A stretch of 24,439 bases of DNA from a virus, in the IMG/VR virus record IMGVR_UViG_3300048694_000101, positions 1 through 24,439 of that record; one strand, given 5' to 3'. Position 1 is the first letter of the stretch; each line of letters begins with the position of its first letter. Below the pieces are notes generated by a model, which worked only from the letters and a program-made list of their open reading frames with translations, was not told where the DNA came from and ran no database searches. This document shows, piece by piece, positions 1,017 through 24,439 of the stretch. A program made the position numbers and the translations under genes.

Positions 1017-1021
1017 GATTG

Positions 1022-1049
1022 AAGGGGAGCAGAAATGCTCCCCTTTTTT
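1022..1049 (+). terminator. Rho-independent terminator after gene 32
   Basis: A perfect inverted repeat, AAGGGGAGCA at 1022-1031 and TGCTCCCCTT at 1036-1045, closes on a GAAA tetraloop (GNRA type) and runs into a six-T tract at 1044-1049. It lies between the stop of gene 32 and the convergent stop of the 942-residue gene at 1051. The T tract favours rightward transcripts. On the leftward strand the stem is the same but is followed by only a weak CTTCAATC, so it may end the leftward operon less efficiently. Confidence 0.93.
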
Positions 1050-1050
1050 G

Positions 1051-3879
1051 TTATCCTATGTTAGATGTACCAAAGTGACCATATGCTGCGCCACTGGTAT
1101 CTGATATATTCTTCATTGCTCGTTCTAATGATGGTGATGAGAATTGTGGGTTGCTTCTCTCCAAGAACTTATCAATATTCACCTGTCTCTGTGGTCTATC
1201 AGGAGGCAATTGCTCCATATTGAATGAGTGTTTATCCTTAGGATCTTTATAGATAGGCTCTGGATTAAGCATACCCTTATCAACATCAGGTGCGCTATAG
1301 ACACCTGGTGGAGGAGCAGGCGGAGGTGGAGGTGCTGCTTGCTGTTGTTCTACAGGTTTAGCTGCAGGAGGTTCTACAGGTTTAGCAAGCGATGGTTTGG
1401 CGAATATTCTATCATACACAAAGTCTTTTGCTTGCTGTAAGTAACCTTTTTCAGTTGGCGCCACTGTGGCAGTTTGATTAGTTGGAGCATTTGCAGCCAC
1501 TGTAGGGACAGGTGGTCCCATTTCTTTACGCATTGCAACCTTGGGTGCCTTTGATTCTTCAAATGCAAGTTTCTTTCTCTCTTGCTCCTTGGTATATTCA
1601 GCATACTTAGTAATGTCCATGACATTAGACTTGGCAAAACCGCCGCTGGGTGTCTTGCCTAGAATTGCCTCTGCCTCTGGAGTATATCTGTTTTTGATAG
1701 ATGGTGCTCTTTCTTGCTTTGCTTTTGCAACAGCCATAATCTGTTCTTCTACAGACTTACCAACAGCATGTTTGGCTTTCTCAAGAATATGTCTGGTGTT
1801 ATTTCTAAATTGAACACCTGTACCAAATAATTGTTCCTGGAATCTGGGATCAGTGACAGTATATCCTAGGCGTGCGGCGGCCTTCAAGAATGGTGTATAA
1901 TGTGTTCTGGCTAGAAACTCATGTTGTGCCTTGTCGAATGCCTCGGGGTTTGCCTTGGCAACTCTCTCATATGCAGCATTGAACTTAGCCGTGCCGGGTT
2001 TTAGTTTTGAAAACTCGGCCGCAAATGGTGCAGCTTCTTCTGATTTAAGAAACTCTGACATAGTACCTGTCTTAGATGCCAGCTGGTGTCTACCATAAGA
2101 GATACCACCTTTATCACCCTTGCCTGTTGAAATCGTTTCAACACCATGATTAGCTGCGGCGCCGTGTTTACCCGATTCCCATTGTCCTGAAATAGCACCA
2201 AGGTCTGGCCTTAGATCAGGCAAGAATCCGTCATATGTCTCTTGAAACTTAACTGCTCCTGTTTTATGATGCTTATGCACTGTAGCCCTACCAGAACCAC
2301 CTGCTTCGGTCTGTGTCATAAATGCGTTTTTATCAATGTTATGAGATTTCATATCTTGATAGATTTGCTGGATCTTCTCATGATTAGGATCGAGGATCTG
2401 AATCTCGTTTGTCTTTTTATTCCACTTGATAGCACCGGCAGCCTGTGCCTCTTCAAAGCCCTGATATGTCTCCTGCATGACCTTTTCTTTACCATAGAAC
2501 ATACTATCTGCCATGGGTTGCTTGGTCTTGACTTCATTCCAATACTTGTCAGGGTCAAACTTATATGATTCGGTTGTTTTCTTTGCAGGTGCCTGTTCTG
2601 CTACCGGTACTGCTGCGGGCGCCGCAGCCGCAGCCTGCTGTGTGGTCGCAGGTGCTTCTTTAGCAGCATTGACTTTCGGTTCGGTCGATACAGAACCCAT
2701 TAATGATAACTGATCAGGATTGGCCAGACTTCTACCGATTTCAACAGCCTGCATTGATTTAGCAGAAGGCTCACCACCTTCAACAACAGCCATTCTTTCG
2801 CCTGATCCTCTATAGTTATTAACATTGACCATAGCAACACGAGCAGGCTGACCGGCAAACTGTTCAAGAATGAGAACATTACCTTTTTCATCAGGTGTCG
2901 AGAGTGCTACACCCGTGTGATAATGTGACTTACCGTCTGGCATATCTTTGGCCATGACACCACCGGGATGATCACCTTTACCATAGTTTGTCGTAGCAAT
3001 GATAGATCCAGGAGTAATGGCAGCATTTTCATTAAATTTCCAACCTGATGCAGCACCCAGATTACTAAAGTGTTTACTTAATGAGGCGCATTGTTCATTG
3101 TCTCCATAGAATCCACCAGACTTTGATGATGTCTTAGATACATCTGCTGTTCCTGATGGTTCTGATCCTTTACCTTCCATAGCAGTTGCATAACCGGCTG
3201 CTGTACCTGAACGCTGCTGTGCCGTAGAATCCGTGTCTTTTGGTTTTTCAAAGTGAGTAGTGAATCCAACAGAAGCGTCAGTAGGATTGGCATAGTTCTT
3301 ACCCAGATAGGTTTTCATTTCACCTTCTGTCAGAGCAAAGTCAATCTGTTTACGCCAGTTTGTTTTCCAATCTTCACCCACATATTGCTTCATTGCTGCA
3401 AATCGTGAGGCATGGTGCTGAAATAGACCACCTGAGGTTCCGTTGTCACCGATAGCACCTGAATTAAATTGTGACTCGTATTTCATATTATTGACAATAC
3501 CAACGGCATGATTATGGTCGATACCTTTTTGTCTTAGATAATCATATATCTCTTTGGCTCTGACGACATTGGTGACCTTTTCACCGTTACCTACCGTTGC
3601 AGAACCGGCTGCACCGTGTGGTCCGTATGTCTTCCCTTCACCACCTAATTCTACACCTGCTTCCTTCTTGGAGAGAGCCTTATAGAATCCCTCCACCTCA
3701 GGTAACTTCTTCTTGTAGTAATCAGGGAATAATGCTGCAAACTGCTCTGGTGTCAGTGATGAGAACGGAGACGCACCACCTTCTGTTTGTGCCGACTTAA
3801 ACAGATCAAGGCGCTTGGGCGGCGCCATGTTCTTTAACTTAGAGAATATATCTTTTTGTGATCCTAATGTGAAAGCCAT
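1051..3879 (-). CDS. Baseplate hub-associated protein with three peptidoglycan hydrolase domains
   Basis: A 942-residue modular protein, last gene of the leftward hub operon. Domain 1, about residues 105-215 (3567-3235), resembles the phage tail lysozyme family (Phage_lysozyme2): likely catalytic E135 in KYESQF, then GDNGTSGGLFQHH. Domain 2, about 257-368 (3111-2776), looks like a CHAP/NlpC-P60 (BPSL0067-type) cysteine amidase or peptidase: C264 in EQCASLSKHF, H321 in SHYHTGVAL, then LEQFAG. Domain 3, about 560-715 (2202-1735), matches the C-terminal lysozyme-like domain of T6SS VgrG3 proteins: E568 in GQWESG and GDKGGISYGRHQL. Ala/Pro/Gln-rich linkers lie at 400-432 and 830-860, and residues 440-550 are unassigned. 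The C-terminus (SPSLERAM, ending GHFGTSNIG) looks like a conserved structural tail, perhaps for docking. ATG overlaps the upstream stop as TAATG. It probably replaces the lysozyme of T4 gp5 for local cell-wall digestion at infection. A tape-measure role is possible but the coiled-coil content is low. Confidence 0.8.
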   Translation of the reverse strand: MAFTLGSQKDIFSKLKNMAPPKRLDLFKSAQTEGGASPFSSLTPEQFAALFPDYYKKKLPEVEGFYKALSKKEAGVELGGEGKTYGPHGAAGSATVGNGEKVTNVVRAKEIYDYLRQKGIDHNHAVGIVNNMKYESQFNSGAIGDNGTSGGLFQHHASRFAAMKQYVGEDWKTNWRKQIDFALTEGEMKTYLGKNYANPTDASVGFTTHFEKPKDTDSTAQQRSGTAAGYATAMEGKGSEPSGTADVSKTSSKSGGFYGDNEQCASLSKHFSNLGAASGWKFNENAAITPGSIIATTNYGKGDHPGGVMAKDMPDGKSHYHTGVALSTPDEKGNVLILEQFAGQPARVAMVNVNNYRGSGERMAVVEGGEPSAKSMQAVEIGRSLANPDQLSLMGSVSTEPKVNAAKEAPATTQQAAAAAPAAVPVAEQAPAKKTTESYKFDPDKYWNEVKTKQPMADSMFYGKEKVMQETYQGFEEAQAAGAIKWNKKTNEIQILDPNHEKIQQIYQDMKSHNIDKNAFMTQTEAGGSGRATVHKHHKTGAVKFQETYDGFLPDLRPDLGAISGQWESGKHGAAANHGVETISTGKGDKGGISYGRHQLASKTGTMSEFLKSEEAAPFAAEFSKLKPGTAKFNAAYERVAKANPEAFDKAQHEFLARTHYTPFLKAAARLGYTVTDPRFQEQLFGTGVQFRNNTRHILEKAKHAVGKSVEEQIMAVAKAKQERAPSIKNRYTPEAEAILGKTPSGGFAKSNVMDITKYAEYTKEQERKKLAFEESKAPKVAMRKEMGPPVPTVAANAPTNQTATVAPTEKGYLQQAKDFVYDRIFAKPSLAKPVEPPAAKPVEQQQAAPPPPPAPPPGVYSAPDVDKGMLNPEPIYKDPKDKHSFNMEQLPPDRPQRQVNIDKFLERSNPQFSSPSLERAMKNISDTSGAAYGHFGTSNIG

Positions 3880-4097
3880 TACATTCTTCTTTTACTGAGT
3901 TGCTTCATCATATTATTGTGTTCTGATTCCATCTGTCTTGCTGTTGTTTCTTGTTCTTTGACCCATGCATTAAGCAGTTCAACATATGTGTGCTTTTCCC
4001 ATGGCATCAGTGCATCGATAGTATCCAGGTTCCACTTATGATGATGTATCAGATTGAAGTTGGACATGATATGATTAGACAGTGTATCATGTCCCAT
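3879..4097 (-). CDS. Small baseplate hub assembly protein (gp51/gp26-like)
   Basis: A 72-residue protein between the 241-residue hub protein (2-base gap) and the 942-residue hydrolase (1-base overlap, TAATG). It has NFNLIHHHKWNL and DALMPWEKHTYVELL, a motif pair I associate with the short hub-assembly proteins of T4-like cyanophages (annotated there as gp51 or gp26), followed by a charged, helical, coiled-coil-like C-terminus. Position inside the hub operon agrees. Which T4 number fits is unsettled: T4 gp51 is far longer. The role (helping to build the central hub, possibly as a chaperone) is inferred from the family label and neighbours. Confidence 0.6.
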   Translation of the reverse strand: MGHDTLSNHIMSNFNLIHHHKWNLDTIDALMPWEKHTYVELLNAWVKEQETTARQMESEHNNMMKQLSKRRM

Positions 4098-4099
4098 TA

Positions 4100-4825
4100 T
4101 CAGATAAAAAAATCGTAGAACTCTGTATACCTCACATCATGGTTAAACCCGCACTTGGGGCATTTTGCTTCAATTCTGCCACGAATAGTAGGGAACCTAT
4201 CGACATATGCTTCTAGCTTCTTATAGTGTTCTTCTGTCAATCCCTCAACGAAGTCTTTTAATTCTTCCTGAGTGTAATCTTTATATGAGTGCATACCCTT
4301 CTTGTCATATATGTAATCGATGGAACTTACAATAACGTGCGTCTTTTTATCAAGGTCAGGCAGTTCTTCGATCTTCCTCATAATGCTGTAATTGGGGTAT
4401 CTCATTACAACACCGGAAGAACCGGTCAATCTGATATCATTCTCGACGCCTTCGAACTTGACCAGTTCAACATTACCGATATCTACCTGTGTCGAGAAAA
4501 TATGACCGCATGTATTACCATCTTCTAGTGTATTGTTACATGTTAGATTAACAACGGCATTCTCACCAACCGACTTGGCTCTTAGATAGATGAACAGATA
4601 ATCGATATCAAAGAATGGTAACTTGTCAACATCAATTTCATCGTCTTGAATACAGTTATTGATGACCTGTTTGACCGACGCTATGATATCTGCCGGTGTA
4701 TTCGACTCAATTGCTAGTAGTAATAGTTTTTCTTCTTTAACAGTAAATGGTCTGACCTTGATAACCTTACCACTTGACGGAATAGTAAAATCATAAACAG
4801 GTAGATCAATCTTGGGTAAAGGCAT
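4100..4825 (-). CDS. Baseplate hub assembly protein, T4 gp26/gp51 type, with four-cysteine site
   Basis: A 241-residue protein with the typical opening of T4-like hub proteins: short beta segments, then VIKVRPFTVKEEKLLLLA (21-38) and a helical region with LPFFDIDYLFIYLRAKSVGE (69-88). C96 and C106 (LTCNN, NTCGH) and C222/C225 in a CPKCGFNH knuckle near the end could together bind zinc. The C-terminus RYTEFYDFFI is characteristic of the family. ATG at 4825 is preceded by GGAG at suitable distance and a 25-base gap to the gp54-like gene; CTAAATG in that gap is only a near match to a late promoter box. In T4, gp26 and gp51 act in forming the central hub; the exact equivalent here cannot be decided by eye. 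Confidence 0.72.
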   Translation of the reverse strand: MPLPKIDLPVYDFTIPSSGKVIKVRPFTVKEEKLLLLAIESNTPADIIASVKQVINNCIQDDEIDVDKLPFFDIDYLFIYLRAKSVGENAVVNLTCNNTLEDGNTCGHIFSTQVDIGNVELVKFEGVENDIRLTGSSGVVMRYPNYSIMRKIEELPDLDKKTHVIVSSIDYIYDKKGMHSYKDYTQEELKDFVEGLTEEHYKKLEAYVDRFPTIRGRIEAKCPKCGFNHDVRYTEFYDFFI

Positions 4826-4850: not shown

Positions 4851-5480
4851 TTAGGCGTATGGATAATCGTCGGCGCTAGTACCTGTGGCACCGCTGATTA
4901 GGTTAGGTCTATCCCAGTATCTATAAGCAAAGGTGACCTGTAGTCTGAGTATGTCTTGCTCGGCCCAGTTAACTGCCTGCTCGTTTACTACCGTGGGCCA
5001 TGCTTTGTGCAGGCGCCAGTGATATGTGATGTGAGGTTTCAGTGGATTCTTGTCACCTTCGTTACCCCATTCTGCATACTGATAGATATTAATCTCCGAG
5101 TAGTAGTTATTAGGATACTCGAAATTGAATGTATTGACAGGGTTGATATAGTCCAACCAGTCATCGAAAAATCTTCTCTCACTCGAATCGGCACGACATA
5201 GAAACACCAGCGATAGTGGCTGATATTCCGAATTAGACGGAAACATCTGCGCCGGACCATAGTAACGTGCAGTTGAAATACTAAACGCACGACCAGGGAA
5301 ATCGGCAGCCTCGCACAGATAAAGCAGGTCCTGAGGAAATGATTTGAGTGCATTGGGTGGTCTAATATCCACAACATATCGACAACCCTTGGCTAGGGAA
5401 CCGCCTTTGTCTAACGTAGACCTAAACTTCTGCATGTCTAGGTCTTTAATGCCGGTCTGAGAAACGTTATTAGTTGCCAT
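4851..5480 (-). CDS. 54: gp54-like tail tube initiator (gp19-fold)
   Basis: A 209-residue protein with the tube-protein pattern: an early strand RYVVDI, LYLCEAADFPGRAFS (53-67), YYGP, the strand LSLVFLCRADSSERRFFDDWLD and, near the end, LRLQVTFAYRYW. These correspond to T4 gp54 LVISFRMDSEACNYRAMQDWV and TTFDVTFAYR. gp54 sits on gp48 on top of the hub and nucleates tail tube polymerisation. ATG is one base after the stop of the gp48-like gene, the same 48-54 adjacency as T4. It is shorter than T4 gp54 (320), lacking that protein's C-terminal extension. A gp19-type tube protein is the alternative because the fold is shared; neighbour order favours gp54. Confidence 0.68.
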   Translation of the reverse strand: MATNNVSQTGIKDLDMQKFRSTLDKGGSLAKGCRYVVDIRPPNALKSFPQDLLYLCEAADFPGRAFSISTARYYGPAQMFPSNSEYQPLSLVFLCRADSSERRFFDDWLDYINPVNTFNFEYPNNYYSEINIYQYAEWGNEGDKNPLKPHITYHWRLHKAWPTVVNEQAVNWAEQDILRLQVTFAYRYWDRPNLISGATGTSADDYPYA

Positions 5481-5481
5481 T

Positions 5482-6258
5482 TTAGTATCCGCTGTCTATG
5501 TCTGCTTGACTGATAATACGCATTTCTCTAAACACCAATGTTAATTGTAGATTGGTTGGTGCGCCATCTTTAAAGGTACTGAACTCACCTTGCTGGGTAA
5601 AGTCAACGTCAACTCTCTCTAGAACACAACGACCAATCTTAGGAAGATATTGGTTGGGCTGCGATGAACCCGTAGCAATAGTTCTGAACTCAATGCCAAA
5701 TTCTGCTGGTGGTATGAACCAGTAACCTGATGTTAATTGTGATCCCTGTCCTGATGAACCACCTAGAGTGAGTGCGGGCGCAGAGTATTTTCTAAGTGTT
5801 CTGATAATTCTGTGCATTTCATCGTTTTCAGCAGCCGACTGTGGTGCCATAAAGAAACCGAACTGAAAGCGTCTTAGTTCTGAGTTACCATATAGAACGT
5901 CAACTTTAGGATTAATAGTACCCATACCCATTACACGGGCTGCACCTAATGCTGCACCACCTATTTTACTGGCACCTCCGGCGATCATGTCGCCGCCCGG
6001 CACCATTCTAGTAATAGCACCAACCGTGCCTACACCTAGTCGTGTTAGTTTAACGTCATCATATTCATGAATCATCTGCCATTGTAGCGGTCCGTTTTGC
6101 TGACCGCCAGGAACGAATAGACTGATTGTGTCGCTATATCCGCTGTCAACGGTTGAACTCTGAGGTTTCGGAGCACCGCTTGACGGATATATATTAATCT
6201 TCATAAAATGGCCTTGCTGATATGTATTTAAATCAGAAGGGAACTTGAGTTCTGCCAT
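5482..6258 (-). CDS. 48: gp48-like baseplate tail tube cap
   Basis: A 258-residue protein, first gene of the leftward operon. The C-terminal half carries the gp48 pattern: a hydrophobic Gly/Ala segment (about 85-110), NPKVDVLYGNSELRRFQFGFFMAPQSAAEN, a helix HRIIRTLRKYSAP, then IGRCVLERVDVDFTQQGEFSTF, APTNLQLTLVFREMRIIS and a terminal GY. T4 gp48 has VFTWDLTPRSTEDL, CQIQSIRFDKTPNG and FTLEITMREIITL in the same order. gp48 closes the baseplate hub and, with gp54, starts the tail tube. ATG at 6258 has GGAGG upstream. It is about 100 residues shorter than T4 gp48, mainly at the N-terminus. Confidence 0.75.
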   Translation of the reverse strand: MAELKFPSDLNTYQQGHFMKINIYPSSGAPKPQSSTVDSGYSDTISLFVPGGQQNGPLQWQMIHEYDDVKLTRLGVGTVGAITRMVPGGDMIAGGASKIGGAALGAARVMGMGTINPKVDVLYGNSELRRFQFGFFMAPQSAAENDEMHRIIRTLRKYSAPALTLGGSSGQGSQLTSGYWFIPPAEFGIEFRTIATGSSQPNQYLPKIGRCVLERVDVDFTQQGEFSTFKDGAPTNLQLTLVFREMRIISQADIDSGY

Positions 6259-6302
6259 CTATACCTCCAGATACTACATAGTATTTAGTAGAGGTACTAT
6301 GA
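6259..6302. promoter_or_regulatory. Divergent intergenic region with leftward late-promoter-like box
   Basis: This 44-base gap separates the leftward hub operon from the rightward wedge operon. On the minus strand CTAAATA reads from 6288 to 6282, a T4/cyanophage late-promoter-like -10 box; a start a few bases downstream would give a leader of roughly 15-20 bases carrying the GGAGG (6269-6265) before ATG 6258. On the plus strand GAGG at 6291-6294 lies 8 bases before ATG 6303. I see no rightward late box in the gap, so rightward transcription may begin inside the gp48-like gene or rely on an unrecognised promoter. Confidence 0.5.
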
Positions 6303-6758
6303 ATGGCATATGATTATAAGCAAGGTAAATTTACACCCAAATATCCTAAGAAGTATATTGGAGACTCCACGAATATAGTATTCAGATCAGGGTGGGAGAA
6401 GCGTGTTATGGATACGTTAGACAGTAATCCCAATGTTCTTAGATGGGCGTCAGAAGAAGTTATTATACCGTATATCTCTCCGATCGATAACAGACCACAC
6501 CGATACTTTGTTGACTTCTATGTTGAGGCACGGTCACCTGATGGTTCTATTAAGAAGATGCTAATAGAAGTTAAACCGGCAGCACAGACCAAACCACCCA
6601 AGACACCCAAGAGAAAGACCAAACGATATATCTCTGAGGTGATGACATACGGTGTGAATGAAGCCAAGTGGAAGGCAGCAAAAGAGTTTTGTTTAGATAA
6701 AGGGTGGGAGTTTCGTATAATCACAGAAGCGGAACTGTTCAAAAAGACCACTAAATAA
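6303..6758 (+). CDS. 4: gp4-like head completion nuclease (TnsA-type fold)
   Basis: A 151-residue protein matching T4 gp4, a head-completion protein needed before tails join filled heads. Motifs: GKFTPKYPKKYIGD (8-21), a gp4 family signature; FRSGWEKRVM with E32; VLRWASEEVIIPYISP; RYFVDFYVEA with D71; LIEVKP with E89 and K91. E32, D71 and E89-x-K91 form the active-site pattern of PD-(D/E)xK/TnsA endonucleases, so nuclease activity is likely intact. A Lys/Pro-rich loop (91-107) follows. It is the first gene of the rightward operon and ends four bases before the next ATG. An upstream ATG at 6299 is in another frame and closes at once. Confidence 0.88.
   Translation: MAYDYKQGKFTPKYPKKYIGDSTNIVFRSGWEKRVMDTLDSNPNVLRWASEEVIIPYISPIDNRPHRYFVDFYVEARSPDGSIKKMLIEVKPAAQTKPPKTPKRKTKRYISEVMTYGVNEAKWKAAKEFCLDKGWEFRIITEAELFKKTTK
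6751..6757 (+). promoter_or_regulatory. CTAAATA late-promoter-like box at the gp4 stop
   Basis: CTAAATA overlaps the gp4 stop codon (TAA 6756-6758). It matches the late box, but ATG 6763 is only five bases after it, so a transcript would start at or inside the next gene. It would make sense only for a leaderless transcript or for genes further downstream; chance is quite possible because Thr-Lys-stop codons create the string. Confidence 0.2.
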
Positions 6759-9384: not shown

Positions 9385-11025
9385 ATGAAGGGTAAGTTTC
9401 CTGGTCAGGATTCAGAATTACAGATAGGTGTCACTACAGACCAGAAGGCAGAAGACCATTCAGGTAATGCCGGTTATTATCTACCACTCAGAGGTGGACA
9501 GGATACTAACCTGGAAGACTCTATGCTTTCTCCTATGCTCAATTCACCTACTGGTTTTATGCAGCAGGCATTCCCTGGTGCACTAGATCCTGGCACGCCT
9601 GTTGTCGTTATGAGAGAGATTGGTTCTCTCGGTGGCCTTGTTCTAGGTCAGTCTAATACTGTTAAAAAAGGTGGTACAGGTGCCAGCAATAGCAGCCTAC
9701 CATCGGCGCAGAAAGTTAAACAATTAACTGGCACCGAGAGAGATATTAATATTGCGCCTGATATCGAAGAAACGGAAGAGAACGGTGTCAAGATTAGAAA
9801 GATTAAAGAGAAGGGGCAGCAGCATTCCCTTGATCTACTAGACGGTCTGCCTATTCACGGTGCGCTATTCGACATGGCTGGTTTTAGATTACCAGAAATT
9901 AAGAATGTACCTACTGCCAAACAGACCAATGATCAGATGATGTCAGCCCAGCAGTTGCAGCAGATGATGGGTCAGATCATGTCTATGGGTCAGATGATCC
10001 AAGGTCTGGCAGGCAATAAAGGTGGAGGTGGAGGCGCTGGCGGTTACGGTGCAGGTTCATTGGCACCACAGACACCAGGAACGACATATACCCCACCAGG
10101 CGCTAATACAGGTGCAGGTGGCGCCGGATATAGCGGAGGTCTGGGTAATAATATTATCTCGGCTGCCAATGCTCCTTCAGATACTCCTCTATACAGTATT
10201 ATGGAGGGAGTCACACCCCCTATGAAGGCCGCAATTAATTCTCTTTCTGTATTATTACAGGGATATGAAACGACCGGCGGCGTTGCATTTGTTACGGGTG
10301 GTGTTGTCCATGAAGATACATATTTACAAAATGCGGAACAATTACTAAGTCAGGTCAATACACTTGACGATCTAATGTATGTATTGAGTAGACTCCAATG
10401 GGATTCATCGCTTCGTGGTACAGAAAAACTACAGAGTGTCGTCAATGAAATTCAGACGGCATGGGGTGTAGCATTACAAGAGATCGACTATAACGGTAAT
10501 ATCATCATCACATACGGCAGTGCCGATGCCAATCTTGAAATGGATTTTGCCAATACGATGACCAGTAATACGTCATCACCGGCACTTGGTTATTTCAGCG
10601 GTAACGACCCCACATATTCTATTAATGCTACAGGTGCTAGTCAGGGATTCAATAGCGGTTCTGGTATCGGTGGTGCAGGTGGTCAAGGCAGTTCATCATC
10701 CGCCCAGCAAGTTATGGGACAGGTTCAGGGCCTTCTCGGTCAGATTCAAGGTCTAGCACAAGGCATGGATCAGAACATGTTTGGTGAAGCAGCCGGCACC
10801 ATGAAAGATATGTGGAAGCGTATGACACGAGAACAAGAGAATGATGCCAAGAAAATGCACGAGAAATTAAATCAAGCCAGTGATACTCAGAAGATGAGCA
10901 AGATTGTTGAAAAGACCGTAAAAGGTGGCAAGCCGCTGGACACACAGAACTTTGATGAAAATAGTCTAGAGAGCATGGGTGAATCAGCCGGGTCAGGTAA
11001 TTTCGGTGTATCATTCGGACCATAA
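9385..11025 (+). CDS. Baseplate hub/spike protein with gp5-like OB-fold N-terminus
   Basis: A 546-residue protein. Residues 1-92 have an OB-like layout (KGKFPGQDSELQIGV, YYLPLRG, DPGTPVVVMREIGSLGGLVLGQ), resembling the N-terminal domain of gp5/VgrG spikes that seats the needle on the hub. HGALFDMAGFRLPEIKNVPTA (158-178) follows, then a Gln/Met-rich helix (183-209), a Gly-rich linker (211-255), a globular helical region (about 260-400), a Gly/Ser region and a charged helical C-terminus (about 450-510). No lysozyme catalytic pattern is seen, unlike T4 gp5. The start is supported by GGAGG 7 bases upstream of ATG. Between gp27 and the beta-helix it most likely connects hub and needle. Confidence 0.55.
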   Translation: MKGKFPGQDSELQIGVTTDQKAEDHSGNAGYYLPLRGGQDTNLEDSMLSPMLNSPTGFMQQAFPGALDPGTPVVVMREIGSLGGLVLGQSNTVKKGGTGASNSSLPSAQKVKQLTGTERDINIAPDIEETEENGVKIRKIKEKGQQHSLDLLDGLPIHGALFDMAGFRLPEIKNVPTAKQTNDQMMSAQQLQQMMGQIMSMGQMIQGLAGNKGGGGGAGGYGAGSLAPQTPGTTYTPPGANTGAGGAGYSGGLGNNIISAANAPSDTPLYSIMEGVTPPMKAAINSLSVLLQGYETTGGVAFVTGGVVHEDTYLQNAEQLLSQVNTLDDLMYVLSRLQWDSSLRGTEKLQSVVNEIQTAWGVALQEIDYNGNIIITYGSADANLEMDFANTMTSNTSSPALGYFSGNDPTYSINATGASQGFNSGSGIGGAGGQGSSSSAQQVMGQVQGLLGQIQGLAQGMDQNMFGEAAGTMKDMWKRMTREQENDAKKMHEKLNQASDTQKMSKIVEKTVKGGKPLDTQNFDENSLESMGESAGSGNFGVSFGP

Positions 11026-11035
11026 GGAATAAAGA

Positions 11036-12271
11036 ATGTCAAATACAGATGGTGCAGGAGTTACTGGTGAAGTTTCTACAATGCAGGAACCCAAGAAGGA
11101 ATCTCCTAAAAAGTGGACTCAACCACATCAGTCAGATGCCCGTAAAGCAAAATCTACTGGTTCATATCCTGATTACTTCTCATGGAAGACACGCTCAGGA
11201 CACGTTCTACAATTAGACGACACCAAAGGTGGTGAGACTGTAACACTACAGCATCGTGGTGGTACCGCAGTTCAGATGGCACCTGATGGTTCTATGCATG
11301 TCACCGCACATAACGGTAAATATGAGATCACATTCGGTGAGAACCGTGTGACCATATCAGGTGCCCAAGATATCACAGTCAAAGGTGATGCTTCATTCCG
11401 TGTATATGGTGATTATAATGTCACCTGTCAGAAAGATTATAACCTCACCGTTCTAGGTAATTTTAATCTAACTGCCAAGAACCATAACAGACAAATTCTC
11501 GGAAATCTTGACACGCAGGCACGTAATGAGAATAAGAAACTAATGGGTTCATCTTCTAAGATTGCTCGTGGTGCCATTGCATATGTCGCCAAGGGATCAG
11601 TAACCCATGCATCACAGTCAGATCAAATCTTTCTGGGTGGTGCTGCCGGTGCCAATCTATGGGCCAAGAAAGGTAATATCACACAGAATATCGAAGAAGA
11701 AGGCAACTTTCACTCTGAGGCCAAAGACGGTGAGTATCATGTAAAAGCCAAGAAGGCGATTAAAGTCCAATCAACCGACGAAACAATGGACTTTAAATCT
11801 AAGAACGAATTTACTATGACCTCTACTGATAAAAGCGGAAAGATTACTACCAAGCAAGATATGGGAATTGAATCACAGAACTCAGGCGTCAACGTCAAAG
11901 CACAGAATAATATCGGGTTGCAATCAACCTCGGGTGATATTCAGGCCAAGTCAACTGCTGGTAATGTCGAGGTAACCGCACAGCAAAGCCTGGACCTTCG
12001 TGCATCACAAAAGGCGTCACTATCTGCACCGACCACATATGTCTCCGGTGACACCACAACGAATATCAAAGGTGGTACGTCAGTCAATGTTGACGGTCCT
12101 TCTGCACTCAATCTTAATGGGGGTATGTCACAAGTAATGAGCGCACTAGGATTACAAATGAACTTCAACTTTGGATCAGGCGGAGACGCATCAGGAGAGA
12201 CCGGTTCATCACGAGGCGTTCATGCACCTGATAGACCAGCAAATAGAGACGAAGCGGATAACTGGGCATAA
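11036..12271 (+). CDS. 5: gp5 C-terminal-like beta-helical needle (membrane-piercing spike)
   Basis: A 411-residue protein. After a polar N-terminus, YFSWKTRSGHVLQLDDTKGGETVTLQHRGGTAVQM (44-78) is the collar seen in gp5/VgrG spikes just before the needle. From about residue 100 to 385 the sequence follows an eight-residue step, for example ITVKGDAS, FRVYGDYN, VTCQKDYN, LTVLGNFN, matching the VxGxxxxx octad of the T4 gp5 triple-stranded beta-helix, and ending IKGGTSVN, VDGPSALN, LNGG. It lacks both OB and lysozyme domains, so it is a stand-alone needle. No PAAR tip motif is visible at its C-terminus, so a separate tip protein is expected. The Shine-Dalgarno AAGGA overlaps the upstream stop. 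Confidence 0.82.
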   Translation: MSNTDGAGVTGEVSTMQEPKKESPKKWTQPHQSDARKAKSTGSYPDYFSWKTRSGHVLQLDDTKGGETVTLQHRGGTAVQMAPDGSMHVTAHNGKYEITFGENRVTISGAQDITVKGDASFRVYGDYNVTCQKDYNLTVLGNFNLTAKNHNRQILGNLDTQARNENKKLMGSSSKIARGAIAYVAKGSVTHASQSDQIFLGGAAGANLWAKKGNITQNIEEEGNFHSEAKDGEYHVKAKKAIKVQSTDETMDFKSKNEFTMTSTDKSGKITTKQDMGIESQNSGVNVKAQNNIGLQSTSGDIQAKSTAGNVEVTAQQSLDLRASQKASLSAPTTYVSGDTTTNIKGGTSVNVDGPSALNLNGGMSQVMSALGLQMNFNFGSGGDASGETGSSRGVHAPDRPANRDEADNWA

Positions 12272-19568: not shown

Positions 19569-22500
19569 ATGACAAATTTAGATTTGCAATATCTAGCTAA
19601 TACCGCAAATTCACCTAATAGTTCGTTGACAACTAATTTTAACGTCACACCATACTATGATGACTATTCTGCTGACACTGAATACTATAGAATCCTGTTC
19701 AAGCCAGGTTATGCGGTTCAGGCTAGAGAACTAACGCAAATCCAGAGCATGATCCAGAGCCAGATCAATCGATTTGGTAAGCATGTATTTAAAGAAGGTT
19801 CTATTGTTCTTCCTGGTTCATTCAACATCAAGGCAAATCTTCGTGATCAGAAGATGAATCCTATTGACTATGTTAAAATTCAGAACACAAATGCTCTCGG
19901 AAAAAATATTGACGTTACTTCATTCGTCGGTCAGATTGTTACAGGTGCCACCAGCAACATTTCTGCTCTAATTGTTGATACTCTCGACACAGACGGTACC
20001 GCAGCTAATACCAAAACATTCTATGTTACATATCTAAATGCATCAACTGTTGATCCTACCATCAGAGTATTCCAACCAGGTGAAACACTAAACAACGCCA
20101 ATACTGGTCCTTGTTTGGTTCTTAATTCCGATCCTGTTGCTAATACAGGATATGCTTCATGGTTCCAGATTAGTTCTGGTGTTGTCTTTGCCAAGGATCA
20201 CTTTATCTCATTCCCAACTCAATCAGTTGTAATGAGTAGATATGATGCCAACCCAACATGTAAGGTTGGTTTCTATGTTTCAGAAGATATTATCACAGCA
20301 TCACAGGATACCTCACTACTTGATCCTGCTTTAGAAGCATCAAACTATTCTGCACCAGGTGCTGATCGTCTAAAACTTACACCAGAACTATCGGTTGTTG
20401 CATATGACGATAGCCTCCACCTACCAGATTTCGTAACACTCTTTACGATCAAAGATGGTGTTGTGCAGATTACAAACGAGAATACACAGTATAATATTCT
20501 GGGTGATACACTCGCCCGCAGAACATATGACGAAACAGGTGACTATGTTATCAGAGGTCTTAACGTTCAGATTCAAGAACATCTAGACAATGGTGTTAAT
20601 AAGGGTCGATTCACTCTCGCCAATGGTGGTAATTCACAATCACTATATGTTTCTGTTGATCCTGGTCATGCTTACGTGCAGGGATATCCAGTTGATAACA
20701 ATGACAAATTCTCTATTGTTATTCCGAAGCCATTAAACTATAACAGCGTATCAACCCCACAAATCACATCAACTGGCATGGGTCAGTATGTCACTGTCAA
20801 TCAGTTTGTTGGATCATGGCAGGCCGATCAGGGATTGAGAATCAGTCTATATGATCAGCCACAGCAGAGAATTTCTAACTTCGGGTCATCAACAGGACAG
20901 AAGTGGTCAACAGGTTCACAATCTGGTAATGTTATCGGAACCGCCGCTGTAACAACTGTCGATTATGTTAGTGGTACTCCAGGATATGACGCAAAGTATA
21001 ATATTTACTTGACAGACATCACAATGTCTGGTGCTAACAGCTTCGGTAATGTCAGAAGCATTTATTACCATAATGCTGCGGTTTCTGACTCTGGTGCTGA
21101 CATTGTTGGTGCAAGCAATACATCAACTAACACATCACTACAAGGTCTCACACTAGCACCTTTGCTATACAAAGTAGGTTCAAACTTCACAAAGTCTGTT
21201 ACCGATTCTAGTGGTAATCCTGCAACAATCTATTTGTCTGAGAGAACTGCAGGAACAGGTACTACACTGTATATGTCATCTAACGGTGTGTTTAACTTTG
21301 TTCCTTCTCTAGGTACTTACGAAACTCTACCATATGGTACATCAACACTAGCACCTGCGTCGATTTCTAATGATCTAACCCTAACATTTAATGCGGCAAG
21401 CAATATTGGACCTATGTGGGGAACTACGGCAGTTGCTTCATCTGGTTCAGGAACAACACTAAACGGTTCAGGAACTAAGTTCAGCCGCTTTAATAGTGGT
21501 GATAAGATTGAAATTGGTGGTCTTGCTGCTAATACATTCTACATTGCGTCAGTTGCTAATGACACGACACTATATCTAACGACAAGTCTACCAGCAGGTA
21601 TCACGCTTGGTACCGCTGCTAATAACATCTTCAAAGCATATAAGAACGGTGACGTTATTAACCTGCTTGGTTACGGATCAAATACTGGTGTTGCCAAGGT
21701 TGTTACTGCCACACCAACGACAATGACCATCAACGTTTCAGAAACGTTTGCTACAACTGTTCCTGTTACACTTAACTATAAGGTGGCGCTATCATCAACG
21801 GCTGCTGCTAAAGCAACCAAGACACTTAACTCACATATCTTTGTTAAGATTAACTGTGCTACTGCTGGTGTCACTGGTCCATTCTGTCTAGGTTTCTCTG
21901 ACATTTATCAGATTAGAAACATCATCAAGAAAACAGGATCAGCACCAACAACACTAACTGACGGTACGAATGTCACCAAATATTTTGTGTTGAACAATGG
22001 TCAGAAAGATACTATCTACGATCTAGCATACATCACTCCTGCTAATGCTGCCGGTCTCGGTGCTACTGATTATCTTCTAATCGAACTAGATTATTTCTCA
22101 CCAACATATTCTGGTGGTTCTTACTTTACAGTAGATTCATATCCTGTAAACGATTCTGTTGTATCTGATTCATATATCAGAACAGAAAACATTCCGATTT
22201 ATATTTCACCAACGTCAAAGTTGAAATATGATCTAAGAAACCAGATTGACTTTAGACCTGTCAAGTCTATTACTGCCACAGCATCAGCAACAGCAGCCGG
22301 TGCCACTGTAAATCCATCAAACACATCTACCACATTCTATAATAGTGCTGCTATGAAGTTCCCAGTTCCTTCAGCAGAATTGATTTACTCATATCAGTAT
22401 TATCTAGGTAGACAAGATATCGTAGCCATCAACAAGAATGGTGAAATTGCCATCACCGAGGGTGTTCCTGATATCAGTCCTATTGTGCCGCAACCACTAA

Positions 22501-24439
22501 GCACACAGATGTTGATTGCTATTCTGAATATACCACCATATCCATCACTATCACCAGCATATGGTAACATTCTAGGAAGAAAAGATATCACCTGTTCTGC
22601 TAGAAAAGTAACCAATCGTGGTTATACTATGCGTGATATTGGTGTTCTTGATAACAGAATTAAGAACCTAGAATACTATACATCACTAACACTTCTTGAA
22701 AAAGATGCGCTGGCGATGAAAGTTCTGGATGCCAACGGTCTTGATCGATTCAAGAATGGTATCTTTATTGATACATTCAAAGATACATCATTGACTGCTA
22801 AGGGAATTGATCCTGATTATAGAATTGTCACCGATCCAGTCGAACTATCAATTCGCCCACTATTCTCTTCCGATTCATTCAAGTATAATTATATCGGTGG
22901 ATCAAATATTGCTATCAACAGCAACAAGGTGACCTTTGCATATATTGAAAATGTTCACTTTGCTCAGTCTAAAGTAACTGATGCCAGAAACCTTGAAAGA
23001 GGAACTTACTACTATCAAGGTAGTGTCACCATGTTCCCTTATCAAGACGTTTGGATTGATACTTCTACCGCAGAAGATGAGACAGTTACAATTGCTGCAA
23101 ATGGTGCAACTCTATCTGTTTCTGTCAGCACAACACCTGACGTTGCTGCTAAGGTTTCCAAATCATACACTAGCACTACATGGCAAGACTGGAAGACAAA
23201 GATCACCGGATATAATCTATATCGTGGTCAGGGTGCGTCAAGAGTATTGGTCGGAACATATAGTGATGAAGCAACAGCAAGAGGTGTAGCTGCTCAATGG
23301 ACAACGGCCGCCGGCGGTGGTGTTGCAACTCTAGAAACAGTATATGATAATACAAGATTGGGAATAGATTGGTTCGCCAATGAAAGTACCGATACAGCAG
23401 TAGGATCATATAAACTAGTTTCAAGTAGCATGATCCCATACATTAGACCTCAAGATATTGAAGTCCATGTAAGCGGAATGAAACCATATAGCAAACTACA
23501 TGTGTTCTTTGATGGTGTAAATGTTGATTCTTATGTATCACCTCTAACACAAACACAGTTCAACACACTTATTGGTGGTGGTGTGCTACCAATTGATGCC
23601 AACCTACCTTCAATGGGTGGGACATTGATTGTTGACACCAACGGTAATGCCTACTTCACGTTCAAGATTTCTGCCACTGGTCCTAAATTTAGAACTGGTG
23701 AAAGAAGAATGATTGTAATGGACAGTTCACAGATCAATCCACAAGATCCTGCTGTCGAACCAGATGCATCAACATATGCATCATCATACTTCTTTGCAGA
23801 TGGAACTAAACAAGTTCTACAGAGAAACGTCTATTCTACAGAAGGTTTCAGAATCACCGGTGAGAATACAAGTCAAGAATATATGTCATATGCTGACTCA
23901 GTTCTACCAAATACCTGGCGTCCACCACCACCACCTGCTTACTCATGCTTCAACCCTGAAGCCAAGGTGCTTATGGCAGACAGAACATGGAAGCCAATTG
24001 CTGAAGTTAATGTTGGTGATGAAGTTATTGGTGCCAATCTAAGCATCAACAAAGTTGTCAAAACCCTACAGACCACAGTAAATGGTCGTAAGATGATGAA
24101 GCTTAAAGATAACGTATATGCTACTGACGATCATATGTTCCTATCTGATAAGGGATGGAAAACATGGAATCCACAGCATGTTATCAGCATCGATGCCGTC
24201 AATGCGCCACTACTTGAAGGTGAAAACAGAGAGAAGTCAATCGATCCACTCGACAAGCTAAAGATTGTTGATATCGAAAACGATTCACTATCAGCAAAGT
24301 ATGTTGAAGTCGAAAATCTAGGGCATGAGATTGATGACACATTCGATCCTGAATATGTTGTATATGACCTAACACTAGATGGTGACGAAACATACATCGT
24401 TGAAGGATACGTTGTTCATAATTGCTGCTATGCCTATAC
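19569..24439 (+). CDS. Giant DUF4815-type baseplate/tail structural protein, partial, with intein
   Basis: ATG 19569, preceded by GAGG in AAGAGGAAAG, opens a frame without stop to the window edge (1623 codons so far). I read it codon by codon. The N-terminus (MTNLDLQYL, then NFNVTPYYDDYSADTEYYRILFKPGYAVQARELTQIQSM) and LLDPALEASNYSAPGADRL are hallmarks of the DUF4815 family of T4-like phages. Later landmarks are TMRDIGVLDNRIKNLEYYTSLTLLEKD, LDRFKNGIFIDTF and YIRPQDIEVHVSGMKPYSKLHVFFDG. The family occurs beside wedge genes in cyanophage-like genomes and is presumed to be an outer baseplate or fibre-connecting protein; correspondence to T4 gp10 is a guess. After a Pro-rich stretch (WRPPPPPAYS) the frame enters a mini-intein at 23946, then resumes with CCYAY. 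The C-terminal part lies outside the window. Confidence 0.88.
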   Translation, partial: MTNLDLQYLANTANSPNSSLTTNFNVTPYYDDYSADTEYYRILFKPGYAVQARELTQIQSMIQSQINRFGKHVFKEGSIVLPGSFNIKANLRDQKMNPIDYVKIQNTNALGKNIDVTSFVGQIVTGATSNISALIVDTLDTDGTAANTKTFYVTYLNASTVDPTIRVFQPGETLNNANTGPCLVLNSDPVANTGYASWFQISSGVVFAKDHFISFPTQSVVMSRYDANPTCKVGFYVSEDIITASQDTSLLDPALEASNYSAPGADRLKLTPELSVVAYDDSLHLPDFVTLFTIKDGVVQITNENTQYNILGDTLARRTYDETGDYVIRGLNVQIQEHLDNGVNKGRFTLANGGNSQSLYVSVDPGHAYVQGYPVDNNDKFSIVIPKPLNYNSVSTPQITSTGMGQYVTVNQFVGSWQADQGLRISLYDQPQQRISNFGSSTGQKWSTGSQSGNVIGTAAVTTVDYVSGTPGYDAKYNIYLTDITMSGANSFGNVRSIYYHNAAVSDSGADIVGASNTSTNTSLQGLTLAPLLYKVGSNFTKSVTDSSGNPATIYLSERTAGTGTTLYMSSNGVFNFVPSLGTYETLPYGTSTLAPASISNDLTLTFNAASNIGPMWGTTAVASSGSGTTLNGSGTKFSRFNSGDKIEIGGLAANTFYIASVANDTTLYLTTSLPAGITLGTAANNIFKAYKNGDVINLLGYGSNTGVAKVVTATPTTMTINVSETFATTVPVTLNYKVALSSTAAAKATKTLNSHIFVKINCATAGVTGPFCLGFSDIYQIRNIIKKTGSAPTTLTDGTNVTKYFVLNNGQKDTIYDLAYITPANAAGLGATDYLLIELDYFSPTYSGGSYFTVDSYPVNDSVVSDSYIRTENIPIYISPTSKLKYDLRNQIDFRPVKSITATASATAAGATVNPSNTSTTFYNSAAMKFPVPSAELIYSYQYYLGRQDIVAINKNGEIAITEGVPDISPIVPQPLSTQMLIAILNIPPYPSLSPAYGNILGRKDITCSARKVTNRGYTMRDIGVLDNRIKNLEYYTSLTLLEKDALAMKVLDANGLDRFKNGIFIDTFKDTSLTAKGIDPDYRIVTDPVELSIRPLFSSDSFKYNYIGGSNIAINSNKVTFAYIENVHFAQSKVTDARNLERGTYYYQGSVTMFPYQDVWIDTSTAEDETVTIAANGATLSVSVSTTPDVAAKVSKSYTSTTWQDWKTKITGYNLYRGQGASRVLVGTYSDEATARGVAAQWTTAAGGGVATLETVYDNTRLGIDWFANESTDTAVGSYKLVSSSMIPYIRPQDIEVHVSGMKPYSKLHVFFDGVNVDSYVSPLTQTQFNTLIGGGVLPIDANLPSMGGTLIVDTNGNAYFTFKISATGPKFRTGERRMIVMDSSQINPQDPAVEPDASTYASSYFFADGTKQVLQRNVYSTEGFRITGENTSQEYMSYADSVLPNTWRPPPPPAYSCFNPEAKVLMADRTWKPIAEVNVGDEVIGANLSINKVVKTLQTTVNGRKMMKLKDNVYATDDHMFLSDKGWKTWNPQHVISIDAVNAPLLEGENREKSIDPLDKLKIVDIENDSLSAKYVEVENLGHEIDDTFDPEYVVYDLTLDGDETYIVEGYVVHNCCYAY
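23946..24422 (+). other. Mini-intein (Hint domain) within the DUF4815 protein
   Basis: Residues 1460-1618 of the host protein (159 residues). Block A: Cys1 in CFNPEAKVLMADRTWKPI followed by VGDEVIG. Block B: YATDDHMFL with T60 and H63 of the intein (TxxH). Blocks F and G: VYDLTLDGDETYIVEGYVVHN with penultimate His158 and terminal Asn159. The +1 residue is Cys (24423-24425). All canonical splicing residues are present, so class 1 cis-splicing with thioester formation at Cys1, transfer to Cys+1 and Asn cyclisation is expected. About 60 polar, acidic residues between blocks B and F replace a homing endonuclease; no LAGLIDADG or HNH motif is seen. It could instead act as a self-cleaving Hint module, but Cys+1 and HN favour splicing. 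Confidence 0.9.

Follow-up and report, generated by a model that had tools for sequence, protein, structure and literature searches.

Through a computational analysis of the window, that is the whole 24,439-nucleotide stretch comprising positions 1-24,439 of the viral record IMGVR_UViG_3300048694_000101, we identify a predicted three-enzyme peptidoglycan hydrolase of 942 residues (1051..3879, minus strand), whose gene adjoins tail hub genes in a T4-like water phage. We propose, with a probability of roughly 0.8, that this protein is a virion-associated tail hydrolase that opens the cell wall during DNA entry. It carries domains with conserved catalytic residues, is encoded in a hub operon behind a late-promoter-like motif, and belongs to a family whose members have exchanged their enzymatic modules.

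The coordinates 1051-3879 given for this gene in a first-pass annotation, made without database searches, proved exact; translation proceeds on the minus strand (3879 to 1051), and a plus-strand reading of the interval was ruled out by stops throughout. That annotation had proposed three hydrolase domains in series with key residues E135, C264, H321 and E568. All four residues are found at the named positions and the serial arrangement is borne out, by Pfam for the first and third domains and by the BPSL0067 family and the predicted fold for the second. Pfam searches recovered Phage_lysozyme2 (residues 107-233) and the VgrG3-like C-terminal domain (residues 560-722), with no significant family in between; we refer to the three regions as slots 1 to 3. 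A predicted model of the full-length protein is only moderate in confidence (predicted local distance difference test score, pLDDT, 64.2), and a search with PADLOC gave no match.

Slot 1 (residues 107-233; 3181..3561, minus strand) matches PF18013 with an E-value of 3.4e-17, its 63.4 bits lying above the curated cut-off of 28.2. A profile built from 16 rows of this slot recovered phi29 gp13 (PDB: 3csr; E=4.9e-10) and aligned E135, which is kept in all 16 rows, with chain residue 45, which we take to be the catalytic glutamate of gp13. A Foldseek search with the full-length model likewise matched slot 1 to 3csr (E=5.3e-3). By these matches slot 1 is a Phage_lysozyme2 domain related to that of phi29 gp13, with E135 as its predicted catalytic residue. 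Slot 3 (residues 560-730; 1690..2202, minus strand) corresponds to the chitosanase-fold muramidase domain typified by the C-terminal region of VgrG3: residues 560-722 match PF21277 with an E-value of 3.6e-34 (118.8 bits, above the curated cut-off of 27), and a profile of 11 rows recovered VgrG3 itself (PDB: 4noo; E=1.4e-32), aligning E568 and D589 with an identical glutamate and aspartate that are presumably the catalytic pair. Both residues are kept in 11/11 rows, and 4nso (E=7.5e-5) and 4noo head the Foldseek results for the full-length model. Across phage records the window protein has matches in 93, most of those listed being via this domain. The first-pass annotation had regarded the domain as borrowed from type VI secretion system (T6SS) effectors; this direction of transfer is not supported, because PF21277 recurs in the tail-region proteins of many phages.

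The region between them, slot 2, centers on a predicted cysteine hydrolase core (residues 246-380; 2740..3144, minus strand), which had been described as CHAP/NlpC-like. As regards the fold this description is probably right; the Pfam CHAP model does not recognize the core, with none of 35 family members matching it up to E=10, and a profile search of PDB using the core recovered no match. The closest sequence family is instead NCBIfam BPSL0067 (NF033857), which matches 17 of the 35 members at E<=10 (best 5e-8) and the window core with E=2.8e-4, its 21.1 bits falling short of the cut-off of 27. We accordingly consider the core to be related to BPSL0067 by sequence, and do not file it as a member. 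The AlphaFold2 model of the core is confident (pLDDT 90.8). In a Foldseek search with it a CHAP endolysin came first, with an E-value no better than 0.01, and the CHAP domain of the phi812 hub (PDB: 9eum; E=0.06) second. In structural comparisons with VIA-align the first nine ranks were CHAP domains, including PlyGRCS, PcsB and Ly7917, which we take to be CHAP proteins, and rank 10 was the NlpC-type MepS; the best Z was 7.5, below the caution line of Z 8, with a root-mean-square deviation of 3.0 over 99 residues. C264 and H321 are each invariant (35/35) and position 339 is glutamate (23), aspartate (11) or asparagine (1). This pattern resembles a Cys-His-acid/amide triad, in which E339 is probably the third residue, and the core is likely to adopt a CHAP/NlpC fold.

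Examination of the gene context places the hydrolase at the end of an operon with the order gp48-gp54-gp26-gp51-hydrolase on the minus strand. It encodes a gp48-like tail tube cap (5482..6258; phrog_230, E=1.3e-38), a gp54-like tail tube protein (4851..5480; phrog_45, E=1.1e-29), the baseplate hub protein gp26 (4100..4825; PF12322, E=1.6e-55, and phrog_150) and the hub assembly catalyst gp51 (3879..4097; phrog_634, E=1.6e-18), whose stop codon shares bases with the ATG start codon of the hydrolase gene (TAATG). A convergent gp32 gene lies beyond a terminator-like hairpin at 1021..1046, to which no strand is assigned. Among non-redundant relatives, gp51 is immediately upstream of the hydrolase in 33/34 and gp26 is present in 34/34 of those with the 5' side available, and gp32 is convergent in 36/37. 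A CTAAATA motif (6281..6288, minus strand) stands 24 nucleotides upstream of gp48, and 31 of 32 relatives (loci picked by hand among those with a gp48 open reading frame, or ORF) have TAAATA, mostly as CTAAATA, in the 60 nucleotides before gp48, against an expectation of about 0.017 per 55 nucleotides. TAAATA is not enriched over the whole window (11 found versus about 22 expected), so the evidence lies in its conserved place before gp48 and not in its overall frequency; the T4 late promoter TATAAATA itself has a single match in the window, which is the chance level. We read the motif as a putative T4-type late promoter of this operon, of the kind found in cyanophages.

To obtain relatives we carried out three scans of viral contigs in all, which yielded 55 different ORFs containing the core, the N-terminal segment or both; after dropping proteins shorter than 600 residues or about 90% alike across the first 400 residues, 42 non-redundant proteins remained, including that of the window. 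The approximately 40 relatives come from uncultivated T4-like phages, occupy the same operonic position and mostly share an N-terminal segment of about 75 residues. Local profiles detected this segment in 34 of the 42 proteins, the core in 38, Phage_lysozyme2 in 18, SLT_3 in seven and VgrG3-C in 14. The enzyme triple of the window recurs in 9/42 and another triple, with SLT_3, in 2/42. Slot 1 may thus be Phage_lysozyme2, SLT_3 or a glucosaminidase (the last by Pfam in L037), slot 2 the BPSL0067/CHAP-like core or Amidase_2 (which by Pfam replaces the core in L084 and L085), and slot 3 VgrG3-C or other domains; L005 displays a second Phage_lysozyme2 stretch. As a side observation, residues ~130-260 of L085, ahead of its Amidase_2 domain, resemble by eye a cell wall hydrolase of the SleB type and gave no Pfam match at E<=0.01.

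The exchange is apparent in pairwise comparisons. For instance, between L053 and L062 identity reaches 95% over the N-terminal segment, 88% over the core and 100% over VgrG3-C, but only 24% over slot 1. Slot 1 of the window protein is 80% identical to that of L004 and 44% to that of L001, its core 40% and 70% respectively, its slot 3 70% to that of L001, and its C-terminal end (residues 867-942) 60% to that of L004 and 39% to that of L001, the two being about equally close to the window in the flanking gp26, gp51 and gp32. On these identities the window protein is a mosaic whose parts switch within linkers, close to residue 240 and again somewhere from ~780 to 900. We also compared identity matrices of each part with those of gp51, gp26, gp54 and gp48, in figures from which shared ancestry and linkage have not been removed: correlations were r 0.57-0.65 for the N-terminal part and 0.71-0.74 for the C-terminal part, versus 0.25-0.33 for the core and 0.23-0.53 for slot 1. 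With the adjacent gp32 the two ends show weaker correlations (0.16 and 0.36), so linkage by itself does not account for their agreement with the tail genes.

Three regions that the first-pass annotation had overlooked are the N-terminal segment, a folded segment at residues 440-531 and the conserved C-terminal end. The first (residues 1-75, with the motif LTPxxFAxLFPxYY; 3655..3879, minus strand), defined by alignment and a local profile, is the proposed docking part. In 50,697 phage records neither this segment (E=4) nor the CHAP-like core (E=0.8) had a significant match, both being at chance level, and four pattern matches to the segment in bacterial and archaeal genomes yielded no confirmed case. 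The C-terminal region (residues 779-942; 1054..1545, minus strand) is a proline-rich tail modeled with low confidence that ends in a conserved motif, SPSLxRAM... The folded segment (2287..2562, minus strand) lies between the core and slot 3, forms a block with pLDDT mostly 73-87 and no Pfam match, and was detected by a local profile in 10/42 proteins; it might act in wall binding or as another catalytic part. The Ala/Pro/Gln linkers noted earlier are confirmed for residues 396-440 (2560..2694, minus strand), where A/P/Q/T/S account for 67% and pLDDT is below 50 over 396-435; the linker at 236-262 is of a Ser/Gly/Lys type instead.

T4 gp5 carries a single lysozyme within the spike, which cuts the wall on entry at the baseplate hub; the first-pass annotation was correct to credit T4 with just one. 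In the window the pieces corresponding to gp5 have no lysozyme by Pfam, and a separate hub-operon protein supplies three other enzymes. One piece is a 546-residue ORF at the gp5 position (9385..11025, plus strand), in which no lysozyme was found and the oligonucleotide/oligosaccharide-binding fold of gp5 was not confirmed. The other is a 411-residue spike piece resembling the gp5 C-terminus (11036..12271, plus strand), matching phrog_430 (E=1.2e-22, profile positions 327-585) and, below the cut-off, Gp5_trimer_C (E=4.5e-4). Additionally, G001, a 172-kb relative, encodes a 188-residue protein distant from its hub genes (L098:4854-5417) whose match to the PAAR motif is weak (E=0.0032, below the cut-off); it is a possible candidate for the spike tip.

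The first-pass description of a modular wall-penetration machine is well supported by the three domains, the late hub operon, the translational coupling to gp51 and the exchange of enzymes. Residues 1-75 at one end and the final ~75 at the other would probably dock the hydrolase to the baseplate hub or the tail lumen. Upon contraction of the sheath the spike would cross the outer membrane and the hydrolase would then enter the periplasm and make a local hole in the wall, with the glycan predicted to be cleaved by the lysozyme of the phi29 gp13 kind and by the VgrG3-like muramidase, and the peptide stem or the amide bond by the CHAP-like cysteine hydrolase. Across the family the ends stay with the tail genes and the enzyme domains are swapped at the linkers, with host wall chemistry possibly selecting the enzymes.

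Several points weigh against this proposal. The presence of the hydrolase, or of proteins of the same family, in the virion is a prediction from operon and promoter evidence. The CHAP assignment combines a weak sequence match with a Z of 7.5, a level that may reflect just a common arrangement. Contrary to the idea of exchangeable slots, VgrG3-C, an enzymatic part, also varies in step with the tail genes (r 0.50-0.72, n 8-10). Moreover, in G001 no dedicated endolysin was recognized among the ORFs checked (Pfam on 8 selected ORFs of 219), so an endolysin role is conceivable there. The alternative of an endolysin that is set free as infection ends, to lyse the host, gains further from the annotation "endolysin" carried by some VgrG3-C relatives in jumbo phages, and all three folds are known from endolysins. 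Against it, the hydrolase is coupled to gp51 in a tail-gene operon behind the late-promoter-like motif, and 942 residues with tail-gene-like ends would be unusual for an endolysin. Separate small lysins occur elsewhere in 2/8 relatives, G002 (PF00959, the T4-type lysozyme, which had no match in 7/8 related records) and G007 (Phage_lysozyme2, 165 residues), which makes the endolysin role less likely; we judge it very improbable. Another reading, also unlikely though to a lesser degree, has at least one domain devoid of activity and used for wall binding or as a structural element. In its favor, the similarity to CHAP is distant and enzymatic activity is a prediction from sequence; against it, the catalytic positions are conserved throughout the rows aligned for each domain.

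The tape measure of T4, gp29 (phrog_1283), poses a related difficulty, as it was recognized in 0/8 relatives at E<=1; the tail plan is in this respect incompletely understood, and the hydrolase might itself be a tape measure with enzyme domains in positional replacement of gp29. In G001, five ORFs of at least 300 residues with a strongly hydrophobic segment were considered as tape measure candidates and none was tape-measure-like on inspection; its pieces were scanned one by one, so that ORFs spanning piece borders were cut. Isolated T4-like phages also have wall hydrolase genes directly after gp26/gp51, which speaks for the tail hydrolase reading: Phage_lysozyme2 then M23 in S-RIM44 and Sf-FP1, GH108 in DLP6, and SLT_3 then VanY in DSL-LC03. 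In S-RIM44 and Sf-FP1 (phrog_5453) the gene after gp51, and in DLP6 the second after it (AAY80_233), encodes a long tape-measure-like protein with a hydrophobic middle and a single hydrolase. PHROG "tape measure" families match the window protein via its lysozyme domain, and 9/42 family proteins have a 19-residue segment above 1.6 on the Kyte-Doolittle scale. The window protein, in contrast, consists mostly of globular domains and disorder and has no phrog_1283 match at E<=0.1. The absence of a hydrophobic stretch in it (19-residue maximum 0.97) and a length that changes with the enzymes make this role less likely as well: relatives that start with Met and exceed 800 residues range from 804 to 1134, which would alter tail length. 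Further, no N-terminal or core homology to the S-RIM44, Sf-FP1 and DLP6 proteins was found at E<1e-3, and phrog_5453 matched neither the window protein nor any of 8 relatives at E<=0.1; the family thus appears to be their positional counterpart, homologous at most in the lysozyme. We consider a tape measure role to be highly doubtful, and favor the virion-associated tail hydrolase.

Other known systems share individual features with this protein. phi29 gp13 ("Morphogenesis protein 1"; PDB: 3csq/3csr) is also a tail protein that combines a Phage_lysozyme2-type lysozyme with a peptide-cutting domain, presumably of the M23 type; it has two enzymes rather than three, lacks VgrG3-C and belongs to a podovirus tail, not a T4-like hub. 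The "VgrG-like/endolysin" proteins of PaBG, JA11, YerA41 and Carin-5 have VgrG3-C in a tail-region protein of 930-1176 residues; by Pfam a second hydrolase is present in 0/4, and the match to the whole window protein is restricted to the VgrG3-C region. The T6SS effector VgrG3 has the same muramidase domain with aligned catalytic residues, whereas its VgrG spike domain was not found by Pfam in the window protein. In the staphylococcal phi812 a wall hydrolase of the CHAP fold, weakly matching the core, sits in the hub; its host is Gram-positive. Tail hydrolases with several domains, and the shuffling of domains in phage lysins, are already known, as noted in a published account (PMC10684548). 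Among search listings and abstract openings we recognized no published description of the present family. The three-enzyme form in a T4-like hub operon, the exchange of slots and the lysozyme-less spike appear to be a new variant.

Elsewhere in the window, the 151-residue product of 6303-6758 (plus strand) has an N-terminal domain resembling TnsA endonuclease (PF08722, E=1.1e-24); relatives such as DLP6 annotate a head completion protein at this place. The last ORF (19569-24437, plus strand), a tail protein running off the window, displays by eye a C-terminal stretch resembling the Hint/intein type (CFNPEAKVLM... VVHN). Two of eight related records carry a PmoC/AmoC gene (PF04896, E ~1e-107 to 1e-110; L099:1931-2704, i.e. 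G001:61931-62704, and G004:140447-141175), so that hosts may include methane or ammonia oxidizers; PmoC is known from freshwater pmoC-phages, as described in a published account (PMC7674155).

Taken further, these observations raise an idea for which we see about even odds, namely that in an uncultivated T4-like clade the wall-cutting function has left the spike protein gp5 for a "warhead": its two ends vary together with the tail genes, its slots recombine at linkers, and segment 440-531 may contribute one more module for wall binding or catalysis. Such a protein would parallel, in a phage tail, the exchangeable effector domains that T6SS spikes carry, and would follow the wall chemistry of the host. 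If true, not every T4-like phage depends on a single spike lysozyme, and this clade, known here from uncultivated phages only, uses a multi-enzyme, exchangeable wall-cutting protein. Its common ends and interchangeable enzymes would permit direct tests of tail hydrolase loading and of host-wall matching, and the family would offer a source of natural wall-cutting domains.

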